This document shows positions 4,368 to 56,991 of a stretch of DNA of 64,000 bases, piece by piece. A program made the translations under genes and the position numbers. The DNA lies in contig JAIYDP010000003.1 of the NCBI GenBank assembly GCA_027487435.1, positions 1 to 64,000 of the forward strand, in the 5' to 3' direction. Positions within the stretch are counted from its first letter, which is position 1; every line of letters starts with the position of its first letter. The notes beneath the pieces are model-generated. The model was not told the origin of the DNA. It did no database searches and saw only the letters and a program-made list of their open reading frames with translations. Origin of the DNA: Verrucomicrobiaceae bacterium. Its GTDB lineage: Bacteria > Verrucomicrobiota > Verrucomicrobiia > Verrucomicrobiales > Akkermansiaceae.

Positions 4368-4410
4368 GCTGTTGAAGAAGATTAATTGACATGGAATTTA
4401 GAGCAACGTA

Positions 4411-5540
4411 ATGAGATGTGTTGTTTTCTGCGGCGGCAGTGGCTCCAGCAACATTATCTCAAGTGAAGATGTCATGATTTTTGAAGAAGTCATGTTTCTC
4501 GTTCCAGTCTCAGACGATGGTGGATCGTCTGGGTCGCTGAGCTCTTCTCTTGGAATTCCTGCAGTCGGCGACATGAGAGCTCGAATTTGTCGGCTCGCTC
4601 AACCATCACAGCGATTGGAGCTGTATAGAAAGAGGCTGTGCATAGATGCAGCATTGGCTAAGCTTGAGTTCGACAATTTCCTTCAGTCGTTGCCCGAGAG
4701 TGAGACGTTCCTGATGGCTCGACTTGCTCATTTCATTTCACTAGTATCAGAGTTATCCTTCTCGTTTGCAAATGGCTCCATTGGTAATTTTGCAATAGCG
4801 TCACTTTATTTTGAACACAAATCTCTGTCCAAAGCGTCAGAAATGATTTGCCGTGAACTTGGCATCCCTCCTTCCGTAACCGTTTGCTCTCTTATAGACT
4901 TCTGCCCTCATCCGCTTCGTGTTGCCGTTGAGCTCGACAACGGGGACGTCATTCGAGGTCAAAATGAAGTTTCCCATCCCTCTACGCAGATACAAGTTGA
5001 CAAGTCTTTTCAAGAGCCCCTCCCGTCCCCAATCAAAGCCCTTCACGTCGGCTGCGATGGCGCATCTCCCAACATGGCAGCGCTCACGAAGATCGCTAAC
5101 GCAGCGCTAGTTCTATACTCATGCGGCTCTTTGTTCACATCAATCATTGCGCAGCTCGTGCTACCACAAGTTGGCTCCGCAATTTCCAAAAGCAACGCCA
5201 TCAAAGTACTTCTTTTGAACAACCAGCCGGTCTGGCCCCTGCGCAATGTTTCTCAACCGGACAGGACCGAGAGACGTTTGGCATCACAGCAGCCGACGTT
5301 ATCATGTCAATGGCTCGGTTAGAAACAAAGATGAAATCTGACACAAGCAGCCACTGCAACATCGCGCACCTAGCGGACGTGGTCGACGTTGTTGCCTCCG
5401 TCAGAGGGTGCGCCATCCCTTTGGGACCCCTCGCACTCACTGCGGCTGAGCACGTCGAAGTGGACGGAGCAAACGGCTTGTGGTGTCCTCTGCTATTCAA
5501 GCAGCTACTTCAACGCTTGTCCAAACGAGTTGCGAACTAA
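4411..5540 (+). CDS. CofD/YvcK-family protein
   Basis: Member of the CofD superfamily, which includes archaeal and bacterial 2-phospho-L-lactate transferase (F420 synthesis) and bacterial YvcK/MgfK, a UDP-sugar-binding regulator of carbon metabolism. Seen in the sequence: the N-terminal VVFCGGSGSSN motif, PVSDDGGSSGSL, GIPAVGDMRAR, FANGSIGNF, a CGSLFTSI motif, and LLNNQP joined across a 35-nt intron (5230-5264) to DRETFGITAAD. The GSLFTS and DRET motifs are hallmarks of the family. The intron shows this is a resident eukaryotic gene, not bacterial contamination. About 364 residues with no evident targeting peptide. Its substrate cannot be told from sequence; eukaryotic members are largely uncharacterised. 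Confidence 0.87.
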
Positions 5541-5705: not shown

Positions 5706-8700
5706 TCAAATGCGTTGCAGCAGAGGAATACTCATGTCCGACGCCCCATGGTCAGACCCGCTCGACGCTTCAGAACGGCATTGTTTGCCGTCAGCAATCG
5801 CCTCCAACGCCTCTGCAACCTCCCCAAACTCTGGCCGCAGCGCTTCGTCCCTATCCCAACATCGGATCATCAGCTCTGCAAAGTCTGGGTTCATGTCCGC
5901 TTCAACAGACGGCCGCCCCCCCTCTTTTATGTACGCCATGGCCGCGATGGGCCCTTCAGGAAACATTGGGTCGTTTGAGTACGGTACCTTCCGCGTCCAC
6001 ACTTCCCACATCAAAATGCCAAAACTGTACACGTCGCCCCTGGCTGTTGCGATCGCCCCCACTTCGAACGTCTCAGGCGGCGCCCACAACCATGCCCCCA
6101 GCCGCTCCGTCGCCCGGGACGCCGCAGCTTTTGCCGCGCCGAAATCTGCAAGCTTCGCGACAAAGTCCTCGTTAACAAGGACGTTGCGGCTCTTTAAGTC
6201 ACGATGGACAAGGCCAAGGGCGTGAAGAAACCTCATTGCCGCTGCGACATTTGAGAGCATAGCGTTCTTCCGCTTGGAGGGGAGGGAGACCGAGGGGTCG
6301 TTCAGGAGGGCAAAGAGGGTTCCGCGGCTCATAAATTCGAGGATGAGCGCGGGTGGCCGCAAAGTCACGGCGAGCAGTTGCACGACGTTGGGGTGACGTA
6401 GGCTCTGATGCAGCGCCGCCTCTTCGATGAAAGCGTCCTGATCATTGGCGCCGTAGAGGCGCTTAACAGCGACTCGCTGCCCCTTCCAAAGCGCGACGCT
6501 GACGACGCCGTCCGCACCGGCGCCGACGTCGCGGAGGACGTCAAGGTCGGCTGAGGATATGACAAGGTCGCGGTTAACAAAGAGGGGGGCTGATTGGGCA
6601 CGGCGGCCACTTGAGTTGATGTCGACAAATGAATGGAGGAGACGAGCCGTCACCCGCTCGCGCCACCGCCGATGAGCTCGCCGAACAGCCACAACGGCAA
6701 TCAAAAAAAGAAACACGACGACAATGGAGGCAGGGATGGCGATGGCTCCAATCCAAACGGACGCGGGGCTGATGCCTAAGCGCCCGCAGCGGGGGGGTTG
6801 AGGGGCGACGTCGCAGGGCGAGATGGCTATTCGGACATTGGACGCGGGGAATCTCAGTTGGCAAAAAAATGAGGACGAGACTTGGACGTCTTTGGAGGGG
6901 CAGTCGGCGGTAACGTTGGCAGCGGCGGGGGTATCATAAATGACCTGAAGGGTGGTGCCTTTGACTCCAGGGTTGAACAATTGACCCATGGCGTCGCGGA
7001 GAATAAGAAGGCAGAGGTAGGGCGTGGTGCCGTCCCACGTGAAGGCGACGTTGATGCGCGAGCCGACGATGATGAGGGACGAATGCGCTGGGGAGGGGAG
7101 GGGTGGCACAGCTGCGAGGGAGATGTGGACGCACGCCGGGATGACGAGGGGGACGAGGGTCAGTTGGACGACGGGGGATGAGTGGGTGGGGACGAAGAGT
7201 CGGACGACGCCAAATTGGTCAGCGACTGTTGCCGCTGGAATGGATGGAACGGCTACTCCGAAAGCTGGGGTGACAGAGACGATTACATCGTGGGGACTCT
7301 GGGTTTTGATGGGGAGGGTTGCCGTCACGCGGACGCAAACGGCGAGAGGGGCGAGGTAGGAGGGCTCGAGGGGTGAGAGGCAAACGACGGGGGCGATGCA
7401 AGAGACGAAGGGGGCGGAGAGGGCGTCGACGCGAATGATGTTGGTGGAGTTGTCTCCGGAGAAGACGCTGAGGACTTGATCTGAGTGCGACGTGGAGCCA
7501 ACGACGGTGATGTTTGATGGGCCGAAGGAGGAGATGACGAAAAAGGATAAAAGCTCGACTCCGTCGATGACAAGGGAGCAGGCGGAGATGGTGAAGCGGG
7601 CAGCGATGGGGGTGTTAACAAGGGAGGAGGAGATGGTGACGTTGGACTGCACGGCGTCAAGGGAGACGTTGAAGGCGAGCTGCTGCGTGAAAATGAGGTC
7701 CGACTGCGTCGCGCCGATGAGAAAAGACACAAAAGGCGATGACAAAAACGAGCCACGCCGCACAGTCAGGGTTGAATTTGAAATTACGATGGCGCCATTG
7801 GCGGAAGGCTGGTTTGCGACGAGGATGGAGTCGACGAAGACAAGGACGGTCGAGAAGGCGGTGATGGCAGGGCTTAAGGAGACGAAGGAGGCGACAGAGG
7901 TGAGGCGGGAGTGGCGCGCGTCGAGTGCGACGGCGTTGGAGGAGGAGGAGGTGATGTTTGATGCGACGAAAACGACTTGGCTCTTGGAGACGACGGAGGC
8001 GTAGGTCTGGGATGTCGTCGCGAGGGAGGAGGTAAGGAGGAGGACGAATGACTCTTCACGGATGATGACGGCCTCGCACGAGCTGATGTGCGACGACGTC
8101 ATCGTCACCTGCGCCGTCTGAAAATAGACACCGATTTGAACCCCAAGGCGGGACGTCATAACCACGGCATCAAACGTTGCCGCCGCCTTGATGACGCTGA
8201 CGCCGTAGCCGTTGGGCACGACGGGCTCTGGCGTGTCGACGGTGATGACGGTGGAGTTAAAAAACAGCTCACCGCCGTTAAATTCGAGGGCATAACTTGA
8301 TGTGACGGCAACGAACGTCGACGCGCGCACGAACACGACACAGGCGTGCGACTCCAGGGCTGACACCCCCGATACGTTAACAATGACATCAGTCAAGTTT
8401 AGCGCGCCGACAAAGCATCGCGCAAAGGACCCTGACGTTGCGGCGCCGCTGCGGCGAAAATCCGATGAAAGGACGGTCGCGGAGGCGCCGCGATCGACGT
8501 ACAAGTCGCCTGCTTTTGAAGACGCGATGTTCAAATTGAAAGATGAGTTTGTTATGGACAGATGCCCGGAGTCACCGACGTAACAGGCGCCGCCGGAATA
8601 GGCGGTGTTGGCAACGAATTGGGAATTTGAGATGGCAACAATGGCGGAGTCAACGACAGTAAGGGCGCCCCCCCCACGGATGAAATTAAAAGCCTCATTG

Positions 8701-10367
8701 TTCAAGAAAATTGAGTTAGTTACGAACGTGACAGAGCTGCTGTGGGCGCAAATGGCGGCGCCGTAGGAGGCGCGGTTACTTTCGAATCTGGACCGACGGA
8801 TAGTGGCGCTGCCTTGGGAGAAGATGGCGCCGCAGTTTGAAGCAAAGTTTGACTTAAAGCTGCAGTCCTCAATCGTTACGTTAGAGTCAGCGGAAACAGA
8901 CAACGCCGCACCGCCAATTGTCTCGTTTGCAGTGCAGCCTTCAAAGCGGGAGCTTGAAATTACCCCCGTCGAGGCGGTGAGGGCGAATGGGAGGTCTCCC
9001 CGTGCGTTCGAGCGGCTGAAAACGCAGCCAACAATGTAAAACGTTTGCACGAACCTCACGTTGCCGCCAACGGCGCAGTCGGCCGTGCGCAACCCGTCGG
9101 CGATGATGGCGACCATCGACTCGGCCTTGAAAGCTTGCGTTGCGTTGCGAACCGTCACGTTTTGGATGGTGGCACTGGAACCGTACGAAATCAGCAGCGC
9201 TGGGGCGCCGGACGTGTTGGCGACTGTTGAGTTTGAGATGAGCCCAGATTGGATGGAGGAGAGGGTGATGGCGCCGTTGGGGAAGACCTCGTGCATCCAC
9301 GCGCTCGCGACAGTAACGGCGACGACGTTTGCGATGAGGACGTTCTGAAAATAGATGCAGCTCTGCCTGCAGTTGGAGAAAAAACAGTCGCTCGCTTGCG
9401 CACGAAAGCCGGTCACGGCGCCGATGGGGTTGTCCGCGTCAAAAAAGCGGCTGCTTGAGACGGAGAGATTTGCTCCATTGGCCCCAACGCAGGAAGGGAC
9501 GTTGAAACCCTTCACATTTGAGAAATGCGAGTCAGTGACGACCACAACTTCGGCTGAGGGAAGAGACATCGCGGCGGAGTAAAAGACTGGGCCGCCGTAA
9601 GAGTTAGAGACGTCGGCAACGACAGCGGCCCTGACGAAGAGACTTGCCAAGTTCACGCAAACGGAGGAGCCCAAGGGGGCGGTGTTGATGTTGGTGACGG
9701 CGATGTCTGAGAAGGTTGACTCTTCGATTGAGACGTTGCCGCGTAGAAGCAAGACGGCGGCGCAGCCGTTTGCGACGGAGATGTTGGAAAACGTAGTTGT
9801 CGAGATGGAGAGGGTGGTGAAAGATGCTGAGGCGTCGACGACGCAGCCAAAGCTGCAGCCGAAGTTGGCGAAGGAGGAGGAGGAGATGGCGATGGAAAGG
9901 GGGGAGGTTCCGTTGGCTTTGATGACGGGCATTTCCAGCGCGTTGATTGAAGAGATTGAGATGGATGTAAGAGAGAGGGATGATGCGCCGGAGATGACTA
10001 CGATAGGGGTCGTACCTGTGAAGGACAACGAAGACAGCCACAAATGAATGTTGGCTCCACTAAAGAAAGGAGGCTCATGAACTATTACTTGAGCTGGGGC
10101 AGCAGACGATATTGTGAGATTGGTAAGACGACATGGAGACGGTAGCACCGAGGACAAGGTCGAATTGTATGACGCGCCGTCTATGAAAATTTGCATGGCA
10201 GCGCCATTGCAGCCAACACGCAGAGCAGCCTGTACAGTGCGAAGCGGGGCATCAAACGAGCCGATGCTAGAGTCAGAACCTCTCTCACTTACCCAGATGA
10301 CCCTCTGACTACAGCAAAGGGCAAAAGAAACTAGGACAGCAAGGCCTCGTAGAAACCATGTCCACAT
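5706..10367 (-). CDS. Receptor-like TKL kinase with beta-helix ectodomain
   Basis: A 1,553-residue single-pass membrane kinase. It has a signal peptide (about residues 1-20, MWTWFLRGLAVLVSFALCC) and a long ectodomain of parallel beta-helix repeats, rich in short SN/T-type turns and N-glycosylation sequons. One transmembrane helix lies at about 1205-1229, followed by basic residues. The cytosolic tyrosine-kinase-like domain spans about 1268-1526. Catalytic residues are all present: glycine loop VGAGADGVV, VAVK lysine (about 1302), HRDLKSRN (Asp about 1390), DFG (about 1408) and WAPPE. It therefore looks active, probably on Ser/Thr. The 4.66-kb frame has no intron, in contrast to nearly all its neighbours. 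The ligand is unknown; beta-helix ectodomains often bind carbohydrates. Stop codons of this gene and the CofD-like gene converge 165 bp apart. Confidence 0.93.
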   Translation of the reverse strand: MWTWFLRGLAVLVSFALCCSQRVIWVSERGSDSSIGSFDAPLRTVQAALRVGCNGAAMQIFIDGASYNSTLSSVLPSPCRLTNLTISSAAPAQVIVHEPPFFSGANIHLWLSSLSFTGTTPIVVISGASSLSLTSISISSINALEMPVIKANGTSPLSIAISSSSFANFGCSFGCVVDASASFTTLSISTTTFSNISVANGCAAVLLLRGNVSIEESTFSDIAVTNINTAPLGSSVCVNLASLFVRAAVVADVSNSYGGPVFYSAAMSLPSAEVVVVTDSHFSNVKGFNVPSCVGANGANLSVSSSRFFDADNPIGAVTGFRAQASDCFFSNCRQSCIYFQNVLIANVVAVTVASAWMHEVFPNGAITLSSIQSGLISNSTVANTSGAPALLISYGSSATIQNVTVRNATQAFKAESMVAIIADGLRTADCAVGGNVRFVQTFYIVGCVFSRSNARGDLPFALTASTGVISSSRFEGCTANETIGGAALSVSADSNVTIEDCSFKSNFASNCGAIFSQGSATIRRSRFESNRASYGAAICAHSSSVTFVTNSIFLNNEAFNFIRGGGALTVVDSAIVAISNSQFVANTAYSGGACYVGDSGHLSITNSSFNLNIASSKAGDLYVDRGASATVLSSDFRRSGAATSGSFARCFVGALNLTDVIVNVSGVSALESHACVVFVRASTFVAVTSSYALEFNGGELFFNSTVITVDTPEPVVPNGYGVSVIKAAATFDAVVMTSRLGVQIGVYFQTAQVTMTSSHISSCEAVIIREESFVLLLTSSLATTSQTYASVVSKSQVVFVASNITSSSSNAVALDARHSRLTSVASFVSLSPAITAFSTVLVFVDSILVANQPSANGAIVISNSTLTVRRGSFLSSPFVSFLIGATQSDLIFTQQLAFNVSLDAVQSNVTISSSLVNTPIAARFTISACSLVIDGVELLSFFVISSFGPSNITVVGSTSHSDQVLSVFSGDNSTNIIRVDALSAPFVSCIAPVVCLSPLEPSYLAPLAVCVRVTATLPIKTQSPHDVIVSVTPAFGVAVPSIPAATVADQFGVVRLFVPTHSSPVVQLTLVPLVIPACVHISLAAVPPLPSPAHSSLIIVGSRINVAFTWDGTTPYLCLLILRDAMGQLFNPGVKGTTLQVIYDTPAAANVTADCPSKDVQVSSSFFCQLRFPASNVRIAISPCDVAPQPPRCGRLGISPASVWIGAIAIPASIVVVFLFLIAVVAVRRAHRRWRERVTARLLHSFVDINSSGRRAQSAPLFVNRDLVISSADLDVLRDVGAGADGVVSVALWKGQRVAVKRLYGANDQDAFIEEAALHQSLRHPNVVQLLAVTLRPPALILEFMSRGTLFALLNDPSVSLPSKRKNAMLSNVAAAMRFLHALGLVHRDLKSRNVLVNEDFVAKLADFGAAKAAASRATERLGAWLWAPPETFEVGAIATARGDVYSFGILMWEVWTRKVPYSNDPMFPEGPIAAMAYIKEGGRPSVEADMNPDFAELMIRCWDRDEALRPEFGEVAEALEAIADGKQCRSEASSGSDHGASDMSIPLLQRI

Positions 10368-10454
10368 CCCACTCTAACAAATGCTTTTTATCGAGGCAGC
10401 ATTGAGTTGAGGATCTACGTCATTGCTCCTCTTGAAAAATGTCCAAAAGCATCA

Positions 10455-12475
10455 ATGTCTTATCCAATTGGACCAGCCGCTAGCGTAATGGACTTGTCAT
10501 CTTGGCAAAGTCGTGTACATTTGACGAAGTCATGGTTGTGCGAAAGTCCTTGTTCCAGTGGAAGTATTTGCAATTCAGGCCCGGCGTCATCATCTTGAAT
10601 GTCGACAGTACACTGGGAAGTAACAAGAAGTTGGACGCGCTGTCTTCACTGCTGTTTTCCAGACTTTCTGATTGACTGATTTACCAGCCTCAAGAGCGCA
10701 TATGACAAGAAAGTATCCACTGTTTGGATCCGGGCAAAGCCTCTCACAGCACCGCTAGTGCTATCTGCATGTGCACCCTCACCCAGTAGGGGCGCGTACA
10801 GGAAGTTGGGCAAATGATTCTGCTGAACAAGCTCCTGGGGAAGCGAGTCCTGTTCTCTTCCGGTCAGAATATGCTGCCCCCATCAATTGATTCACTAGAC
10901 ACGCTGTCCAATGCTGAACTCCTGTTGTCGTCTTATTGCTCCGAGAGATACTTGTCCCCACACTCCATCGTGTCCCTCACAGGTTTCTCCATCGGCCGTG
11001 CCTACTTCAAAGGTCTCCTTGATAAAGCTGGTCTAGCGGTTGAATGTACCTCCTCCTTTTCAAGCCCAATTCTTCAGCGTTTCAGCAAGGCCAATTCAAA
11101 GGATTCTCCGACCCGTTCACAGCCACCGCCCCAACGGCGCAGCAGTCCGCATTTTTTGCCTCCTTCCTTCAATCGACCGCCGCGACATACTCTGCAGCAG
11201 TGGCCTCCAATCTCTCGCTCGACCCTCAGCTTATCCACGACGCGTACAACAAAGGCATATTCTCCGCAGCATCAGCAGCTAGCGCTGGCCTTGTGTCCGC
11301 CGTTAAGTACGACGACGAAGTGGAAGCGTCGCTGGGTGACATTCCCGCGCTCTCTGCGAGTGAGTCTCTTTGAAATCGACCTTGTTTATGGCTCAGAGGA
11401 GTATCGCCGTGTTTCCGACCGTGCGGCTGATGTTCCCCGCGGTCGCGACACAATTGCCGTTGTGTCTTTGCAAGGACCAATCACTCTGGTCGCCGGGCAG
11501 ACGCCGTTTGGGCGGGCGATGGGCGTCGAGAGTTTGCGAAGAGCTTTGAAAGCTGCCGTCGATGCCAAGCGTGTGAAAGGCATCGTATTCAAAGTCTCTT
11601 CCTCTCAGTTGTCACGTTGACAATGCAGGTCAGCTCCCCCGGAGGTTGCGCAACGTGCGGCTGCTCGCGCTTCGACTCGTCTGACGAATTCGCAGCGCCT
11701 CGGACGTGATCGCTCGAGAGGTTGAGCGCGCAGCGGCGGTGAAGCCCGTCGTACGTTCGCGCTTTGCAATACCTGACGCAAGGCCGTTTCAATGGGAGCA
11801 GTTGCTGCGTCGGGTGGTTACTATGTCAGCGCGCCAGCAAGGCGAATATTTGCCCAGCCCCTGACTGTAACTGGCTCCATTGGCGTCGCATCCATTAAGG
11901 TTGGGTCAGGAGGATCTTCTGAAAATGTAGCCGAACTTCAAGGGGCTGCTTGAAAAGCTGGGGATCACAACGGTAGCAGCCCAACGCCGGACTTACCCGT
12001 GCAGTTTGAATCGTCGTGCGGTACGTTTGCAGGCCTCAGGCTCCCTCTCCACAATTTGGATGAGGGCGAGCGTGCGGTCCTTCGTCAGCTCTCGGCCGAC
12101 ACGTATGAGACTTTTGTGTCGAAGATGAGCCACTACAGGAAAATCGAACGGGGGGTGGTGTTGTAGCAAGTTGGAATGACTGCGCAGAGGATGGATGCGC
12201 TCGCGGAGGGCGCCGTTTTTGTAGGTGCAAATGCTGCGCAGAATGGCCTGGTCGATGAGCTGGGCGGCGTTAGAGATGCGGCGAGGTGGGTTGCCTCCGA
12301 AGCCGGGGTGGAGGTGGGGGAATTGTCTTTTCTTTGATGGTTGCAGTCGTTCTCCGTCAAGGCTTTTCTGACAGACGGATCGTGGAAGGAGCAGCTGATG
12401 GAGCAGCTGGGTGAGGCTGCCCTGGCTTGGCTGACCGTTCAGAAGATGTTGGTTCCGTTGCCATGTCGAATTTGA
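10455..12475 (+). CDS. Signal peptide peptidase SppA (protease IV family)
   Basis: Serine-lysine membrane protease of family S49. In bacteria it degrades cleaved signal peptides; in plants it is a thylakoid-associated enzyme. About twelve short introns (31-50 nt) restore a full two-repeat SppA. The N-repeat runs from [15 protein letters not shown] through [18 protein letters not shown] to [15 protein letters not shown], which holds the expected catalytic lysine. The C-repeat includes [46 protein letters not shown] (catalytic serine in ASGGYY), [12 protein letters not shown] and [11 protein letters not shown]. The start is placed at the first in-frame ATG ([11 protein letters not shown]); no obvious targeting or transmembrane segment precedes it, so an upstream exon may be missing. 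Its start lies 87 bp from the divergent TKL kinase. The intron density rules out contamination. Confidence 0.88.
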
Positions 12476-12561
12476 TGACTTTGAGTCAAGACATGTCAAT
12501 GAGTAGCGACGTTGATGGCGTGTACTAAATCAAACTTTACTTTTATCAAAGCAAAGGTCAC

Positions 12562-15500
12562 TCACGCACATGGGCTGTCTTGCCATGCGTCCGCCTCCTC
12601 GTCCGTTAGGTCGAAGCAAGTCTCCGCCTCCAAGCCTTCGACTCCCTTGACGCTAAGGGGCGAATACTTCGCGACCATGCCCTCCAGCACAGCTGCCTCC
12701 TTTGCAACCCTCTCAATGGCCCTATGCAGCAGCTTCCGCTCTCGATGGTCAGCCCCGAACGAAGCCAGCTGCTGGAACTGCAACCGCCAGCACTCCCGTG
12801 AGTGCCTCCGGATTTCGTCCTTGTCGTTCCGCGCAATCTCTTCGCTGCAGCCTCTGCAAACAAAGTTTTCGCCGCTCGGTGCAGCTCCTAACAGCTCCTC
12901 GTCAATAGGGAGGGCTGAGATTTGGCCCTCTGCAGCCAGCATCATCGTCCTCACGTTCAGCCGGTCTTCGTACTTCTCCAGCCGCGCCTCCACGTCCGTC
13001 GCGACTCGAACCAATCCCTCAATGCGGTTACGAAACGTCGTGACTTGCACCTCTGCTGAGACTGGTACCTCAACCAAGAAGCTTACAGCGCCCGACCGCT
13101 CAGAGAATTCGTTGAAGCGCAGGTCTGCGGGACAGCAGGCGCCGCAAATTGCGAAACCAAAGGAGGAGTTTTGGGACGTGACGTTACCTTCGATTGTCGG
13201 GCCGTTGACGCCAATGACGAGGATGGACGTCTTGCAGTTTTGCACGACATTGAAGCGAAGAGAGTTCCGATTCGTTTGATCCCAGCCGATTGAATTCAGT
13301 TCGATCCCGATGAGGTTGCACTGTGCAACATAATTGCCATCGACGACGATGTTAAACGAGTCCCGAACGAAAATGCCCGTGACCTCACAGTCGGAGATTG
13401 TGTTGAAGAACACTCGACTCTGTGACATCGCCGTGTCGATCTTCAGGCCGTAGTTGTTCCGGGCGAGGACGTTCTTGGCGACAAGGATCTGAGACGAGCC
13501 AAGACACTCAATCGCAAACACGCGGTGGTCCGAGATGAAGTTGAGGACGGCCTTGACGGAGCAGTTCCCCGTCGAAAAGTACCCAGTTTGCGTATTGTTG
13601 ACAATACAGTTGCTAACGACGGCGCAATCCCCGCTTTCGACAGAGTGAATGCCAATATTGTTCATCACAATCCGGCAGGACTTGATCAGGACGCTGGACG
13701 CCCGCTGCATGACGCCAGACGAGCGGTTGACCTGCAGGAGGCTGTTTTCAACCACAGCTTTTGAATTCTCCAACGCGTAGATGCCGACGTCATTTTCCTC
13801 GAGAAAGCACCTCCGAATCTCCGTGCGGCTGCCCTTGCAGCATTCGACGCCCTGAAGTTGATGGCCCTTGATGTACGACAAGGCACATTGCACAAACCCC
13901 CCATCAAAAGCAAATGCACCCGTCTGAGTATTTGTGTGGACAAAGCACCGTACAAGCCTGACGTAGCCGCCATTTGCAGTTATGCTCTCGACTCCGACGA
14001 CGTTATTTCGAATCTCCGACTGCACAATCCTCACCATCCCTCCAGACTCAACCCGCACCCCACGCGACGAGTTCTGCAGCAGCACACGGTATGCACGTAC
14101 GTAAACAGGCGCCCGGACGATGAGGGCGTAGGACGCCTGCGCTGCAACTGTGCAGTTTTCCACTTCAATGTCCTCGGCTTTGGAAGCGACAAGCAAGCCG
14201 TAGTGGTCCGACGAATTCGCCGTCACAACACAATTCCGCAACCGCCCGCCCAAGAGCATGACCACAGCCTCGTCCCGGCGCTGGTCCAGCGACTGAACTG
14301 TCAAGCCCTCAACGACGCAGCCGCGATTAACGGTGAGGCCACACGACGTGATGGTCGGGAACGAGTGCCTCGCGAAGAGGGCGCACCCTTCTGGCAGTTC
14401 GATGCTTGACTGCACCTTGATACTGCATGACACAAGAATAGCAACGGCAGTCCGCTTGCCACACTCGAGTGCCGCGCTGAGCTGCACTTCGTCATTGACA
14501 TCGATGACTTGCAGAGGGCTGAAGTCAGAGGGAATCAGGCTGGCACTGACGCCAGCGTGCGCAGCGCAAAAAGCTGGGATCTGCGTCTTGAGCTTAAAGA
14601 CCTCTCCGTCGGCGTGGAGATTGAAAAGCTCCTTCGTTTGATTCCACTCCTTGTTCATGTCAGTCGTCAAAAACTTCTTGTCGGCGGCGATCAGGTCTTC
14701 ATACTGTTTCGTCGACCTCTCAATGCGGCCGTGAAGGGCATCAATGCGGGAGTCAATCGATGCGCGCGGTGTCACGGAGTCGGCTTCAACGCAAGGACAC
14801 ACGGCGTTGTGTGCGCTGATCAAGTCGCTGAAAGACAGGGGCGCAACGAATGAGCAGGTGCTGGACAAGCAGGACTCTAAATGATGTGGGCAAACATCCT
14901 CGTGCTCCGCAATGTTGGACAAGGGCCAAACTTCCGCACATCCAGCCGAAGCCTGGGGATGTGAGGTCAAAGTGCGAATGAAGGACGTTGAGAAGGACGG
15001 TTGGGGCGACTTTCATGATGGCGTCCCACATGCGCAAGGCGAGGATGGAGACGGCGCGGACAATCTCGAAGGACATTCCAGGCACCGGATTCTCAAGACC
15101 GCCTGTTGTCCCTTGGCACGATGGCGGGGTGATGTTTCTAAAGATAGAATATACGTGGATGCGGTGGGGGGAGAGGTGATAAAGCCACGTGAGGGCATTG
15201 TCTGACGAAAATTCCAACCGCAGGGGGGAAAAAGCAGCTGAATGGTAAGAAGCTGTTGTGATAAGGGGATGTAGAGCAGAGGTGCGAGGACATCGGACAA
15301 ACACAACGACAAGGAAGCTCACCGTCCGCAGAGAGAGCAGCAGCAATGACCTCGGACTCCCTCACAAGGTTCGCCCATTCGTCGTCGTCGAACTCGCCTA
15401 CCAAAATTGGCCGCAGCCGCAGCTGGAGCGGATTGAGAAGGAATTTGCAATGCACGCGCAGCCTCTGCATCGCCGTGATCGACTGCTCATCCGAAACGAG

Positions 15501-16515
15501 GTCTGCATCGTGCAAGACGCAATTCACAGGACACTTGAGCGACGCTGATGATCCACGCCCCCCCTCCTCAACAGAGGCATTGCGCCGGAAGTCCAAATAC
15601 TTTTCGGCGCATTTCCGGCAGTAGACATGGCCGCAGTTGAGACGAACTGGGTCCATGAAGACAGAGAGGCAGAGCTGGCAGAGGAGGTCCATTGCGGCGG
15701 ACTCGCTGTCTTCGGAAATGCGTCGGCCAAAGACGGTCGGACAAGTCGCCGAGTTGGTGACAGCTTGCTCAATGTCGGCGGCGGTGAAGTGTCGGTCGAT
15801 CGTGTTCTTGGTTGCAAGGACCGTACTGCCCGTGTGCGTAGTGTTAACTGATGGGGTCGACGACAAAGCAGGATTGCAGGGCGGGGCCTCTTCAGCGGCT
15901 AAAACAAAGGCCGCGTCCTTTGGAGCGAAGCGGGATCGAAATTCGTCGTTGGCCCAAAATAGCTGAGCGAACCGCTCGTTCTGGGGCGTGAGACACTCAT
16001 TTGCGGGAGGAACTTTCAGATTGAACTCAAGGGACGATGCTGCAAACTTGGCCTTCTCTTCGGGCTGAAAGGTGAGAGCAATGCAGGCCGAGGTACCGTC
16101 GTCGACACGCCGCCGATGTGTTGCGCAGCGGAAATGTCCAAGAAGAAATGAAAAAGACTCTGTAGCAGGGTAGAGACTGTCCTACCGCGTCAGGAGGCTT
16201 GCAGAGGCACGACATTGTAGATCGCCACTTCTCGGGATGAAAATCAGAAGCCATATCGAGACATATTCGTGCATTGGTCTCGAAACGTCCATTGGGGGTC
16301 AGCATTCGAATGGAAGGAGGCTTGATCGGGGTCTCTTGGGAGAAATGAAGAGTGCCGTGGTAGCAGCCGCCGGCAAACGGCGAGTCTGGTGGGCCCTCGA
16401 ATGCAAAATGCCAAAGGAGAATGTTTCGCTCCTCGATAGCGACCGTGACGAATGGGAGAGGCTCCTTCAGGAGGATCTTCTGCTGATGAAGCAACCACCG
16501 GGTTGCAGGATCCAT
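12562..16515 (-). CDS. E2-RING-zinc-finger-beta-helix fusion (predicted E2/E3 ubiquitin enzyme)
   Basis: Residues about 1-150 form a ubiquitin-conjugating domain closest to UBE2J2: [36 protein letters not shown], catalytic Cys about 85 in NARICLDM, and FHPEKW. Introns (one of 32 nt) join [16 protein letters not shown] and [11 protein letters not shown]. The same frame then continues without a stop through a linker to a RING at about 258-311 ([36 protein letters not shown]; the last pair is CX3C). Further on come a TRAF-like zinc finger ([20 protein letters not shown]), a coiled coil and about 450 residues of right-handed beta-helix repeats. A Cys/His cluster ([11 protein letters not shown]...HSREC) lies near the C-terminus. 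The roughly 90-residue segment between RING and zinc finger is the least certain exon. It lacks the transmembrane tail of UBE2J. Alternative: two genes, the second starting at MDLLCQLC. Confidence 0.75.
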
Positions 16516-16907
16516 TTGGAGACTCTGTAAAATTAAAGATCGTTTTACGGGGGATGGCCATCAGAGTGACCGATTTGATGTGTGACCAACCCAACATTCG
16601 AATCCAGCAGAGTGCAGCATTTGTTTCGAACAGTGAATGTGCATGCAACGAACAAAAGAACGCACATCCTGTGCGGGAAATTGCATCGTGCGTGCTCCAA
16701 TTTGTTTAACGCAAATGTAGTGTTTCATTTTTGAATGCAACAACTCACACCCCACACTTGTCGAGAGCTCTCACGTGAGAGAATGAAATACCATAGAGTT
16801 CGATGATAGAAAGTTTCGTGAGGCGACAATGCAGCCGGCAACAGAAAAAAAAAGCCTGAACTCCTAAAGATAACAAATTATCTCAAAATCTGTTATCGTT
16901 GCCCGCC
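16516..16907. promoter_or_regulatory. Divergent intergenic region
   Basis: About 390 bp between the ATG of the E2/E3 fusion (minus) and the ATG of the WW-PDZ-ARM gene (plus). It is AT-richer than the flanking genes, with a run of eight or more A near 16843-16852. No ORF with coding character and no RNA gene is visible. It presumably carries both promoters. Confidence 0.5.
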
Positions 16908-52494: not shown

Positions 52495-55400
52495 CTACGG
52501 CTCCAGCGTCCTCAGCAGCTCCATCCAATACGCCAGCCAAAGCTCCTCGTCACGCGCCATCCCCTCCAGCCGCGACTTCGACTCCGCCACCCGCCGCCGG
52601 AACTCCCCCCTCGTCAATTCGAACGTCTTATCCCGTGCCCTCTGCACAGTCGCGTGGTTTGTGGTGTCGTCACACTCCACAGCCGCAGTTGTCCCAGCAG
52701 GCTGAGCCGGGGGGTCAGCGGTAGCCGCAGCCCACGTCAGCTCTCCCACAGGTACGCCCCCCACCGTCCGCGTGGGAAACGGCTGCCCCGGCCCCAGCGC
52801 AGCCGCTGCCGGCTTCGACGCGTCCCTCTGCTGCTGCCTTAACAGAGTCTTTAAGGACTTCCTCTTGGCGGGGATGTCGTCTGCGGTTGGGACGAGGTGC
52901 TGCAGCTGTGGCAGCGCGTCGAATGTACCCAGTAGGACCGTCGCGCCATGTGCCGCCGCATACGTCACCCTCTCCCCGTACGCGTCTTCTGCCGCGCGCA
53001 CGATTTCAAATTGCGCAGCGATCCGCGCACGAGTTTCCTCCGATCGAGCCGCTTCGCGCTGCCGCAACGCAGCTAACTCGTCCGCGAGGCCGGGCCGCGC
53101 GAGGATGGGCTTGAGCGCGAGGCCGTTGGCGTCGCGCAACCGCCGCGACGTCGCCACGAAATCTTTAAAAGCGCCCTCAACTTGGCTCAACTTAGCCTTG
53201 CGCACGTGGTCCGCGCGCTTGACCAAATCGCTGAAAATGACCGGCGGTACGCGCGCCATGAGGGCGTCGAGGGTGGCGAGGAGGAGGCGCAACTCGCGCG
53301 TCTTCTCGTCGACGAACTTCTCCGCGTTTTTAACCATTTCTTTTAGCGCGCGCTCGTTGCGCTCGTTCATCTCTGCTAAAGACGGCGCAACCTTGTTAGG
53401 CCGCGTCACAGGCCGCGGGCCCTTGCGGTCGTAAAAGTCTTTAACTAACTTTGCAAGCGCCTCCTTCTTCTCTTGCTCTATTTTCAACACTTTGGTCATT
53501 ATCAAATGCGGCGACTCTTCCTTCCCCCCCCCTGCCCCCTTCCCCGCAGGAGCTTTCGCAGGAGCCGCCCCCCCCTTCGCATCAGCACCCCCCCCCTTCG
53601 GCTTCGCCACAGCCGCGGCCTTTGGGTCCACGGCTTTCAAAACCTCCCCCACCTTTGGCTCCCCGTCGAAATCCGCAGAGGGGGGGGGGGTTTCTAATTT
53701 AACTGCGAGGCACCCGAGAGCAGCCGCCGCAAAAAGAGCCTTTTCGCGCACGACTTTGAGCCCGTCCACAACTCTTGTGGCGATAGACACGTCCCCATCC
53801 CCACCGCTCGTTTTTGACTCTTCGCAGAGCCCCTCGACGGCGTCAAAACGCGCAGCCACCTCCCCAAGCGCCGCCGCCACCTCCGCACAGACCTCCTGCC
53901 GCCGCAACTCCGCCTGCCGCAGCTCTCTGCAAGCGCGTTAGGGGCGTCAGGGGAGGGGGGGGGGAGCAGTGGCGGAGATGCAAAGGATAAAAGAAAGTTA
54001 AAAGAGGGCCTTTAAGGCGCACCGCTCGACGACTTCGCCAAACGAAACGTCCGTCTCGACGTTTGCGAGCGCGGCCGTGAGGCCTCCCAGCGCAGCGCGC
54101 GCCGCCTCCTCAGCCGCCGCGAGGTGTGCCGCAACGGCCGCACGCGCGCGGTCCAGCCGCGCGTCTACGTCTTCGTTAAAAGACGTCAACTCGCTTTGAA
54201 ATCGCGCGATTTCTTCGGCGGCATAACTCCCTCCCGCGTCGATTGGCGCGAGGCTTTTTAAAAACTCCTCGTTTTGAGATTTTAAAAACGCGCAATGCGC
54301 CGCAGCCAGCGCCTCCAACTTCGCAGCGCGTCCCTTCGCTTCGTCGCGAAACGCGCGATCAGCGCGCGTCGCATTTTGTTTCACCGCCGCAAGCGCCGCC
54401 CCGGAAGTCGCATTTTGAAGCGCCGCTTCGCGAGCGTTTTGCTCGGCCGCAAATTCGCGCCCGAAGCCATCGAACGCCTCTACCGCCCGCCCAAACTCCG
54501 TCCGCTGCGCCGCGGCGCGGGCGGACACCTGCGCCATGTGGCGGGAAAACCGCGCGGCGTGCTGGCGCAGCTCCGAGTCGCGCGCCTCAAACACTTCCAT
54601 CTCCACCCGCCCAGCGCGCGGCGCGTGTCGCCGCAGCCGCCCCTCCAAAATGAGCATCGTCTCCTCCTGCGCCGCCGCAGCCTCCGCCACAAACGCCGCC
54701 TCCACGGCGGCGGAGTCGGCGCGGAGGTGCTCCAACGCTGCGCGGCGGAGGGATGCGACGAGTTTTTGAACGAGGTCACCCCCCACGCGAAGGGTTTCGA
54801 CCGCACGCGCACCCGTAGGGTCAGACGGGACGGCGTCGGAGATGAGGGTCTCCGAAGGGATGTCATCAAACCGCGCCCCACAAAAAGGGGCGACCACAAA
54901 CGCGACCAGCCCATCGCCAAGCGTCACAACGGTCTCATCTTCAACCGCTCGGAAGGACGCCGCAGGTTCAGGGGGGGGGGGGGCTTTCTCAGCCTGCGGC
55001 GGTGCGGCGGCGGCAGGTTTGGCGCCTTTGGCCGGAGCGGCTTTGGCTGGCGCTGCTTTTCCCTTCGCCGCCTCATCCGCCGCAGCCGCAACATCCTGCG
55101 GGGGGGTCGGGGGTCGTGGTGGGTCTTTCGAAAGGCCAAACATTTTCGAAAGGTCATCAAAACTTGAGGCGGAGAAGGCGCGGGTGGCGGCGTCAAATGC
55201 CGCGAGCTGCGCGAGGGTCTCGTCGCTCACGCGGCGAAGGTTGGCCTCAATTTCGCCGAGGACGGTCAAGGCCGTCGGAAGGCGCTCGCGAAGGGTCGCG
55301 ATGTTGTGGTCACGGCGAATTTCGTCCAGCGCCGCGGACAGCTTCTCCTCCAATGCAGCAGACGCGTTTTCAAATGCCGCCTGAATGGCCGCCATTTTCT

Positions 55401-56991
55401 GGTCGTGATCTGTGCGGGCGTCTTTGCGCGCGGTTTGAAATGCCGCGAAGAAAGCCGCGATTGCGCGCACAATAGAAGCGAAGCGAGTCGTATGCGCCGC
55501 GTAGTACGCGTGCTGGCCTTCCAAAATCACCCCCGCCGCGTCGACGACCGCTTGCGCCTGCCCAGCGTCAAATCTAAAAGCAACATCCCACACCTCTTTT
55601 GCCCTCCCTTCAATCAGGTCAACAAACGGCCGCGCCGCATTGTCAATTTTATGCGCATCAACCGCCTCCCCCGTCGTCTTGGCCGCGTCCAAAAGCTCCG
55701 CCCGCAGCGCGTCCACCACCTCGTGGCCCTTCGCGAGATGGCGCCGCTCGAACTGGCGCAGCTTGCCGACGCGCGTCTTGTGCTCCGTCGACTGGTCCGA
55801 GTCGAGCGTCTGCACAGGCGTGAGAATCCCCTCGCTGATTGAAATTTCAAACGGACACAGCCCACCCCTCCCCCTCCAACCTCGAGGGTGGAGATCCAGC
55901 GCTCCGCAACTTCGGCCGTTAAGCGAGGGGGGAGGGAGCTCAGGATTGTCCCCATCTCCCTCTCACGCCGCTCCAGGAGGCTCCGCTGCTGTGCGCGCAG
56001 CTGCTCCCACAGCGTCCGCCTCTCTGCTGGCGCCGCCATCGGCGCCCCCTCAAGCGCCTGCGCGCATTTTTGAACTGCGCGGTCAAACAGCGTCCTCTGC
56101 CAAGCCGTTCGGCGCTCGAGCCATCGCGCCTGGGTGCGTAAGGAGATAAGGCGATGATAGCGAGGAGCGGGGAGGAGGTGGTGAGTGGCGGGGGGGAGGG
56201 GATACGCGGAGCCGCCGCATGATCTCGATGCAGTCCGATGAGACGCGGGCGATGAGGTCGGCGTAGGTCTTTTTGTTTTCGAGGATGAGGAAGTTGACGC
56301 GATTGGCGCGCTCTTCGATTGCGCGCTCGATGTCGCCGGGAGGTACGTGGGCGATGTCCAAAAGGATGAGGGAAGTCTTGTCAAGCATCGCGCGCACCAC
56401 CTCCGCACGGTCTGCCTCCATTTGACGAAGCGAATCATCGCAACTGTGTATGGCAGCCATCTTGTCCTCGTGGACGCGGGTGACGTTGGCCCAGACGCCG
56501 TCGAGCTCCTCTTGGCTCAGCGCCATGAGGTTCTCATCGGCGAGGACGGAAAATTCGGAGTCGCCATCTTTGTCGAGGGAGCTGAGAGAGGACTTTAAGG
56601 ATGTTACGGATTGCCGGACTTTGGGTAGGTATGCGTCCATGGTGCGGATGTAGTCTTCGTCAAGCTTTCTTAAGACGGATTCGTGGCTGGAAAAAGTTAG
56701 GGTGTTGAAGTGTGAAATTCACCGTTCCTTCTTACTGCGGAGCATTCTTTCAACAGCATTGCCCCCGAGTTCGCGAGTTGGATCCTTTTGTCCACGTTCT
56801 AAAGAGTGCTTGGTCAGCCCCATGGAGCTCCTCATCATGTCTTGCGAGTCTCCCCAATCCGAATCCGCGAGACTAAATGTTTGCGTGAGACGAGTTTGTT
56901 CTCTCGTTTCAACATGAACAGCTTCTGTGGCCCGTGAAACTCGGGGTCGCACTATTGACGCCGTCAAAGCTGACGAAGCTGTAAACTCCAT
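52495..56991 (-). CDS. CCDC180-like coiled-coil protein
   Basis: Long, Ala/Arg-rich coiled-coil protein of about 1,400 residues. N-terminal exon MEFTASSALTASIVRPRVSR, then intron, KLDEDYIRTMDAYLPKVRQS, and LSQEELDGVWANVTRVHEDK with ERANRVNFLILENKKTYADL, a pattern typical of the DUF4455 region of CCDC180. Later exons at 53998-55815 and 52495-53907 show long helical arms separated by Ala/Lys/Pro linkers (KGKAAPAKAAPAKGAKP). A 95-nt C-rich intron links the last two exons. CCDC180 homologues occur mainly in flagellated species. The C-terminus ends LLRTLEP. Homology is from the N-terminal half; the rest is low complexity. Homopolymer C tracts occur in coding and intron sequence. Confidence 0.72.

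Follow-up and report, generated by a model that had tools for sequence, protein, structure and literature searches.

A predicted eukaryote-type gene joining a UBE2J-derived E2 domain to a RING finger and, putatively, to a beta-helix

The locus and its gene model

The window, by which we mean the whole stretch of 64,000 nucleotides analysed here, is part of a contig of 87,465 bp and carries a predicted gene on the minus strand, with its start at position 16515 and its stop at 12562. In our model, this gene has six exons, separated by five inferred short introns (32, 32, 33, 85 and 34 nt), and encodes 1245 residues without an internal stop:

16214..16515, minus strand: exon 1, with the ATG and most of the UBE2J-type UBC domain, including GRF (residues 76-78), catalytic Cys85 and His93
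16182..16213, minus strand: intron 1, 32 nt, inferred; GT...CTGAC-N5-AG, without it, the conserved VSTxL segment of Ubc6/UBE2J2 is regained
16097..16181, minus strand: exon 2, crossover helix and flap region
16065..16096, minus strand: intron 2, 32 nt, inferred; branch-like signature, and the alignment carries on across it
16014..16064, minus strand: exon 3, C-terminal part of the E2
15981..16013, minus strand: intron 3, 33 nt, in frame; signature and alignment across it, read-through also possible
15323..15980, minus strand: exon 4, end of the E2, linker, RING and first part of the insert
15238..15322, minus strand: intron 4, 85 nt, less certain; equalled in score by an alternative of 70 nt with its end at 15253
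14987..15237, minus strand: exon 5, remainder of the RING-to-zinc-finger insert, with no Pfam family above cut-off
14953..14986, minus strand: intron 5, 34 nt, inferred as part of a top-scoring two-intron link
12562..14952, minus strand: exon 6, zinc fingers, heptad stretch, beta-helix, C-terminal region and stop

The domains follow each other in the order UBE2J/Ubc6-type E2 (Cys85), linker, RING, an insert of about 120 residues, SIAH/TRAF-like zinc fingers, a short heptad stretch, a right-handed beta-helix and a C2HC motif, and the genomic model accordingly has UBC and RING in a single chain. Downstream of the E2, the individual features are:

15684..15938, minus strand: E2-RING linker of 85 codons, open and coding-like, with its sole Met at the RING end
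15519..15680, minus strand: RING finger, residues 247-300 (zf-RING_UBOX 4.1e-9, zf-C3HC4 4e-8), last Cys pair spaced x3
14797..14952, minus strand: SIAH/TRAF-like C2HC fingers, by sequence (C454, H466, C470; C477, C482, H497, C501)
14689..14757, minus strand: heptad pattern read from the sequence, residues 515-537, a possible short coiled coil
13060..14499, minus strand: right-handed parallel beta-helix by Pfam, about residues 601-1080, ends estimated
12790..12864, minus strand: C-x2-C-x14-H-x3-C motif, residues 1148-1170, by sequence, with no Pfam family above cut-off

The four introns of 32-34 nt start with GT and have YTSAC five or six bases before the AG, while the 85-nt intron ends in CTTAC-N5-AG. 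Under a first-order model, 11.1 and 9.8 sites of the form YTNAC-N4-Y-AG would be expected on the two strands; the actual counts are 28 and 21. Five of these sites lie on the minus strand from 12400 to 16600, four of them at intron ends of the model; the fifth (14304-14293), inside the beta-helix exon, is left unused. For intron 1, alternatives of 47 nt and 29 nt were rejected by eye, as they shorten or lengthen the conserved segment.

The initial annotation had described a frame that runs without a stop from the E2 through the RING into the beta-helix. This is true for the C-terminus of the E2 and the RING, which share one frame (ORF 15138-16181) that is stop-free from exon 3 through the RING, but introns are needed elsewhere: the E2 is spread over three frames, with two 32-nt introns between them and a further in-frame intron of 33 nt, and the beta-helix lies in a third reading segment (ORF 12562-15012) that is reached through two more introns.

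The E2 domain

Removal of introns 1-3 (32, 32 and 33 nt) yields a complete UBE2J/Ubc6 domain, which is matched by UQ_con in Pfam (1.4e-13). In phmmer searches of PDB chains, the spliced domain finds yeast Ubc6 (9en5; 8.9e-37, residues 6-154) and human UBE2J2 (2f4w; 5.2e-36, residues 5-155), and in a three-sequence alignment it is 41% identical to Ubc6 and 42% to UBE2J2, with TPNGRF, C85, D91, H93 and P94 invariant. These matches bear out the earlier assignment of a UBE2J2-like E2 with a catalytic Cys at about residue 85. Besides this Cys, the predicted fold retains the GRF motif, a feature of the UBE2J/Ubc6 family (PMC11649903, in excerpt), and the conserved His after the catalytic Cys, as H93 aligns with Ubc6 His94, which is reported to act as the general base (PMC11649903, in excerpt). 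Likewise, D91, H93 and P94 match Asp99, His101 and Pro102 of UBE2J2, residues that were studied in PMC10971424 (in excerpt).

Other characteristics of the family have changed. The insertion following the catalytic Cys is one residue longer than in Ubc6 and UBE2J2 in the three-sequence alignment, and its length is described as invariable in UBE2J/Ubc6 proteins (PMC11649903, in excerpt). The place of Ubc6 Ser89 is taken by Asp and those of Thr121/Thr122 (Ubc6 numbering) by Ala/Ile or His/Ile, depending on the alignment, which means that the Thr-flap threonines are absent. In Ubc6, mutation of Ser89 and Thr121/Thr122 removes or impairs RING-stimulated serine discharge (PMC11649903, in excerpt). 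Hydroxyl chemistry of the predicted E2 is therefore possible, but cannot be claimed with safety. In E2 enzymes, E3 binding is usually supported by a Phe in the β2-β3 loop and by a Pro and an Ala in the loop between the 3-10 helix and α2 (PMC5095918, in excerpt). In the three-sequence alignment, the β2-β3 loop Phe/Tyr is replaced by Ile (ETPIKPP, compared with DYPYKPP and EFPFKPP) and NPG/NPA by RST; by our own mapping, the Ile and RST positions would correspond to these usual contact places.

Proteins of the UBE2J/Ubc6 family carry a C-terminal membrane anchor. We found no membrane span in our model, in which the highest mean hydropathy over 19 residues is 1.41; this supports the loss of the anchor in which, as the initial annotation noted, UBE2J enzymes normally end. 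Judged by its sequence, this is a UBE2J-derived domain, which has the fold of the family and departs from it in anchor, loop length and J2 flap.

The RING finger

The RING finger of the initial annotation is confirmed by the zf-RING_UBOX match (4.1e-9) and by RING models above their cut-offs, four on a 365-residue piece and two on the full model in Pfam. Its C3HC4 ligands are complete (C247, C250, C262, H264, C267, C270, C296 and C300). The linchpin Arg is absent, the residue after C300 being Val. ARIH1 is among the RING matches, but we rejected a reading as RBR ligase, as the Pfam scan gave neither an IBR nor a second RING.

The zinc fingers, beta-helix and C-terminal region

For the region between RING and beta-helix, a TRAF-like zinc finger had been suggested. 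Its C2HC ligands can be recognized in the sequence, but the family match is below the cut-off, with Sina_ZnF reaching only 0.26 and 12.1 bits on the full model against a cut-off of 32. The long beta-helix of the initial annotation is confirmed by Pfam, both in the ORF scan (PF13229 7.4e-24, NosD 5.7e-17) and in the full model (PF13229 4.8e-23, NosD 3.9e-16 and the para_beta_helix repeat), with the best Pfam stretches at residues 776-922 and 922-1045. Structure prediction of this exon from the single sequence, that is without an alignment, gave a mean pLDDT of 42, and a PDB sequence search with the beta-helix ORF returned no match at E up to 0.1. Further downstream, the C-x2-C-x14-H-x3-C motif resembles small ubiquitin-binding zinc fingers.

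A putative tethered E2-E3 ligase

We give a probability of about one half to the reading that a single gene codes for a soluble E2-E3 ligase in tethered form, which combines an E1-charged Cys85, stimulation by the RING, and target recruitment by the beta-helix and zinc motif. In such an enzyme, E1 would load ubiquitin on Cys85 of the UBE2J-derived domain, and the RING, some 80 residues downstream, would stimulate its discharge, be it in cis or between the partners of a dimer that might be held together by the zinc fingers and the short helix. The target would be recruited by the beta-helix and the C-terminal zinc motif, and ubiquitin would be passed to an acceptor of either Ser/Thr or Lys type. 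The product would probably be a self-contained ligase, with an activity predicted from its domain content. More tentatively, it is possible that a J-type E2 lost its anchor and gained a RING and a beta-helix reader, and that its contact and acceptor-selectivity residues drifted, with an altered acceptor chemistry as the result; the RING-contact surface and the J2 acceptor-selectivity residues would have drifted because the tether replaced affinity.

Whether the predicted E2 is active with its own RING is uncertain, since J2 features and the usual RING-contact residues are lost, even though Cys, GRF and His are kept. The changes at the very places where E2 enzymes usually touch RINGs weaken the simple in-cis reading and would fit a protein whose E2 no longer works with the RING, being a regulatory or scaffold part, or whose RING uses other E2s in trans. 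The substituted J2 signature residues and the missing linchpin Arg point the same way. We nevertheless consider this unlikely: the retained catalytic Cys, GRF and His argue against a defunct E2, strong contacts might matter less in a tethered pair, and FANCL, the E3 that pairs with UBE2T, likewise has no linchpin Arg (PMC5095918, in excerpt).

The joins between the domains

Of the two joins in the model, we are less sure of that between RING and beta-helix, a product of inferred splicing, than of that between E2 and RING. For the former, 180 two-intron solutions with introns of 28-110 nt keep the frame open. The top score of 30.1 is common to the pair 15322-15238 and 14986-14953 and to the variant ending at 15253; under a looser pattern, a branch-like motif is present in both, and in many lower-scoring solutions as well. 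The 14 possible links by a single intron of 179-449 nt were rejected, as they score at most 6.1 compared with 30.1.

Alternatively, only E2 and RING might be fused: the first gene would then end with the stop at 15140-15138, and the ATG at 15076 would open a second gene, which encodes the beta-helix. Such an arrangement, which we regard as rather unlikely, would account for the coding signal of exon 5, which is weak at 15237-15077 (0.05 per codon) and strong (0.66) after this ATG, for the length of intron 4 in comparison with the other introns, and for the 12.1 bits of the finger in the full model. Exon 4 read on to its stop, however, scores -0.2 per codon, the two-intron link ties for the best of all 180, and a separate gene would be left with an incomplete zinc finger: the zinc-finger ORF has no Met before residue 119, and the missing first Cys of its first finger could come from the RING exon. 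Indeed, the finger scores higher when it is artificially joined to the RING-side Cys (Sina_ZnF 4.9e-5, 24.1 bits, against 18.6 and 15.3 bits without and a cut-off of 32). As a real splice, this direct join was rejected, as there is no GT donor and the insert is coding-like. The gain in score with the direct join gives a weak hint of an ancestral RING-finger unit that was later split by an insert.

A 10-nt direct repeat, TTGAGAAGGA, is located at 14988-14997 and 15433-15442, at both edges of the RING-to-zinc-finger insert and 445 nt apart. It is the sole direct repeat of at least 10 nt reported in 14900-15500, and once the 85-nt intron is subtracted, its spacing of 445 nt comes to 360 nt, or exactly 120 codons. 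An insertion may have left the two copies as a duplication, or they may be due to chance.

The E2-RING join is well supported by the sequence. The linker has a coding score of +20.1 in its own frame, compared with -53.0 and -39.1 in the other sense frames and with -19.7, 2.1 and -65.4 in the antisense frames, of which that with 2.1 is also open. Among 20,000 first-order random sequences over the length of the linker, 6.2% were open and none was both open and as high-scoring; among 18,214 frames within the window, true genes included, the respective figures were 14.6% and 2.5%. The best stop-free 40-codon windows in three spacer controls, which were delimited by eye and of which the third may include part of a gene, reached 5.3, -1.4 and 10.6. 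Ten sampled linker windows scored between 2.4 and 16.0, with four under the 10.6 of the best non-coding control window. As the scores were trained on 2,307 codons from the beta-helix exon of the same gene and one neighbour, we consider them modest evidence.

In one short, low-scoring stretch of the linker (about 15902-15866), another frame briefly scores higher, as might be expected if E2 and RING-beta-helix were two tandem genes read as one. This appears quite improbable to us, given that the frame is stop-free, that the coding signal lies on both sides of the dip and upstream of the linker's only Met, and that a second gene would find no Met before the edge of the RING. An open, coding-like linker without such a start supports the reading as one gene, as the initial annotation had it for E2 and RING.

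Relation to known systems

The ubiquitin-carrying enzyme, the module that directs it and the domain that holds the target are normally separate proteins. Exceptions exist: a survey of human E3s, with 672 high-confidence members, names BIRC6 and UBE2O as E2/E3 hybrids (PMC13061254, in excerpt), which, like the predicted protein, unite an E2 domain with E3 function in a single chain. Unlike in these hybrids, the E2 described here belongs to another subfamily, and the E3 part consists of RING, zinc fingers and beta-helix. To our knowledge, UBE2O and BIRC6 carry no such RING. The earlier description as a new kind of ubiquitin-conjugating machine is hence too strong, as E2/E3 hybrids are already known (PMC13061254, in excerpt); the predicted protein would be a novel version of such a hybrid. 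According to a survey of ubiquitin-system architectures, in its reconstructed ancestors E1 and E2 families have exclusive accessory domains with few ties to other nodes (PMC4327156, in excerpt). Within the excerpted open-licence PMC literature, including PMC3667038, PMC11354881 and PMC2408969, we found no natural UBC-RING fusion, which leaves its absence unproven.

Among individual families, the ER E2s UBE2J2/Ubc6 and UBE2J1 share the UBC domain, GRF, catalytic Cys and conserved His with our protein. UBE2J2/Ubc6 differ in that the anchor, the Thr-flap threonines and Ser89 are missing here, one post-Cys residue is added, and RING and beta-helix are appended. TRAF/SIAH-type E3 ligases are laid out as a RING followed by C2HC-like fingers and a heptad stretch. 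The sequence suggests a like succession here, with a short heptad stretch, but about 120 residues separate the RING from a finger that is under the cut-off, and where these ligases usually have their substrate domain there is a beta-helix. Lastly, FBXO11 and FBXO10 consist of an F-box and a beta-helix and thus resemble our protein in uniting a ubiquitin-ligase part with a right-handed beta-helix. Here, RING and E2 in cis would stand in for the SCF complex, and a Pfam scan of the full model gave no F-box at E up to 10. By analogy with FBXO11, the beta-helix may have a role in substrate binding.

As a rule, E2s and E3s bind each other weakly and transiently, and an E2 cannot bind E1 and E3 at the same time, because both use the same surface (PMC5095918, in excerpt). 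A natural fusion, if true, would reveal in what way, if any, a tethered pair overcomes this exclusion. It would also offer a compact means of testing whether a RING stimulates a J-type E2 in cis, the serine chemistry of J-type E2s being a subject of current study (PMC11649903, in excerpt), and add the beta-helix to the candidate target-recruiting parts attached to RINGs.

The host contig and its genes

The assembly is filed as a prokaryote species and has 9.39 Mb in 506 contigs. The contig itself is eukaryotic in character, with short introns and Pfam matches to RhoGEF, mitochondrial carrier, PDZ, DUF4455/DUF4456 and amino-acid transporter families; 11 of its 20 scanned ORFs have a Pfam match at 0.001. 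A bacterial SSU rRNA is also present in the assembly, and a PF00179 search of the assembly found only two places at E up to 0.001, the E2-RING gene and a contig of 4,124 bp. For these reasons, the eukaryotic contig looks misbinned. That the gene is an assembly chimera or decayed, as its presence on a single contig of an assembly filed as prokaryotic might suggest, is very improbable, since intron style and codon usage are alike on both sides, a chance mis-join would need to be in frame, and the model has no internal stop.

Searches of viral and prokaryotic genome contigs gave 33 and 29 pattern matches for the E2 alignment and 24 and 2 for the beta-helix exon, none of which was confirmed. Given the viral and prokaryotic make-up of these collections, the result has little bearing on eukaryotes. 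Within the assembly itself, a RING/beta-helix query found one weak match outside the locus (1.6e-4), on contig C373, where a 363-codon ORF with a RING (L015 9973-11064, minus strand) is followed downstream by a frame (9503-10030) that may resemble a LON N-terminal domain.

Several other genes of the window deserve mention. At 52497-56516 (minus strand), there are ORFs with DUF4455 and DUF4456, a pairing that is presumably that of the ciliary protein CCDC180; these ORFs suggest a flagellated or ciliated organism. At 4402-5319 (plus strand), a CofD domain (9e-33) is found on this eukaryote-like contig. An ORF of 1555 codons at 5706-10373 (minus strand) has a C-terminal protein kinase domain (PF07714, 3.8e-48) and, in its N-terminal half, beta-helix matches that came from the genome search, with none listed in the Pfam scan. 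Between it and the E2-RING gene, a Peptidase S49 match below the cut-off (21.3 compared with 24.9 bits) lies at 10790-11617 (plus strand), in a gene that by eye seems split by short introns and runs toward the E2-RING gene.
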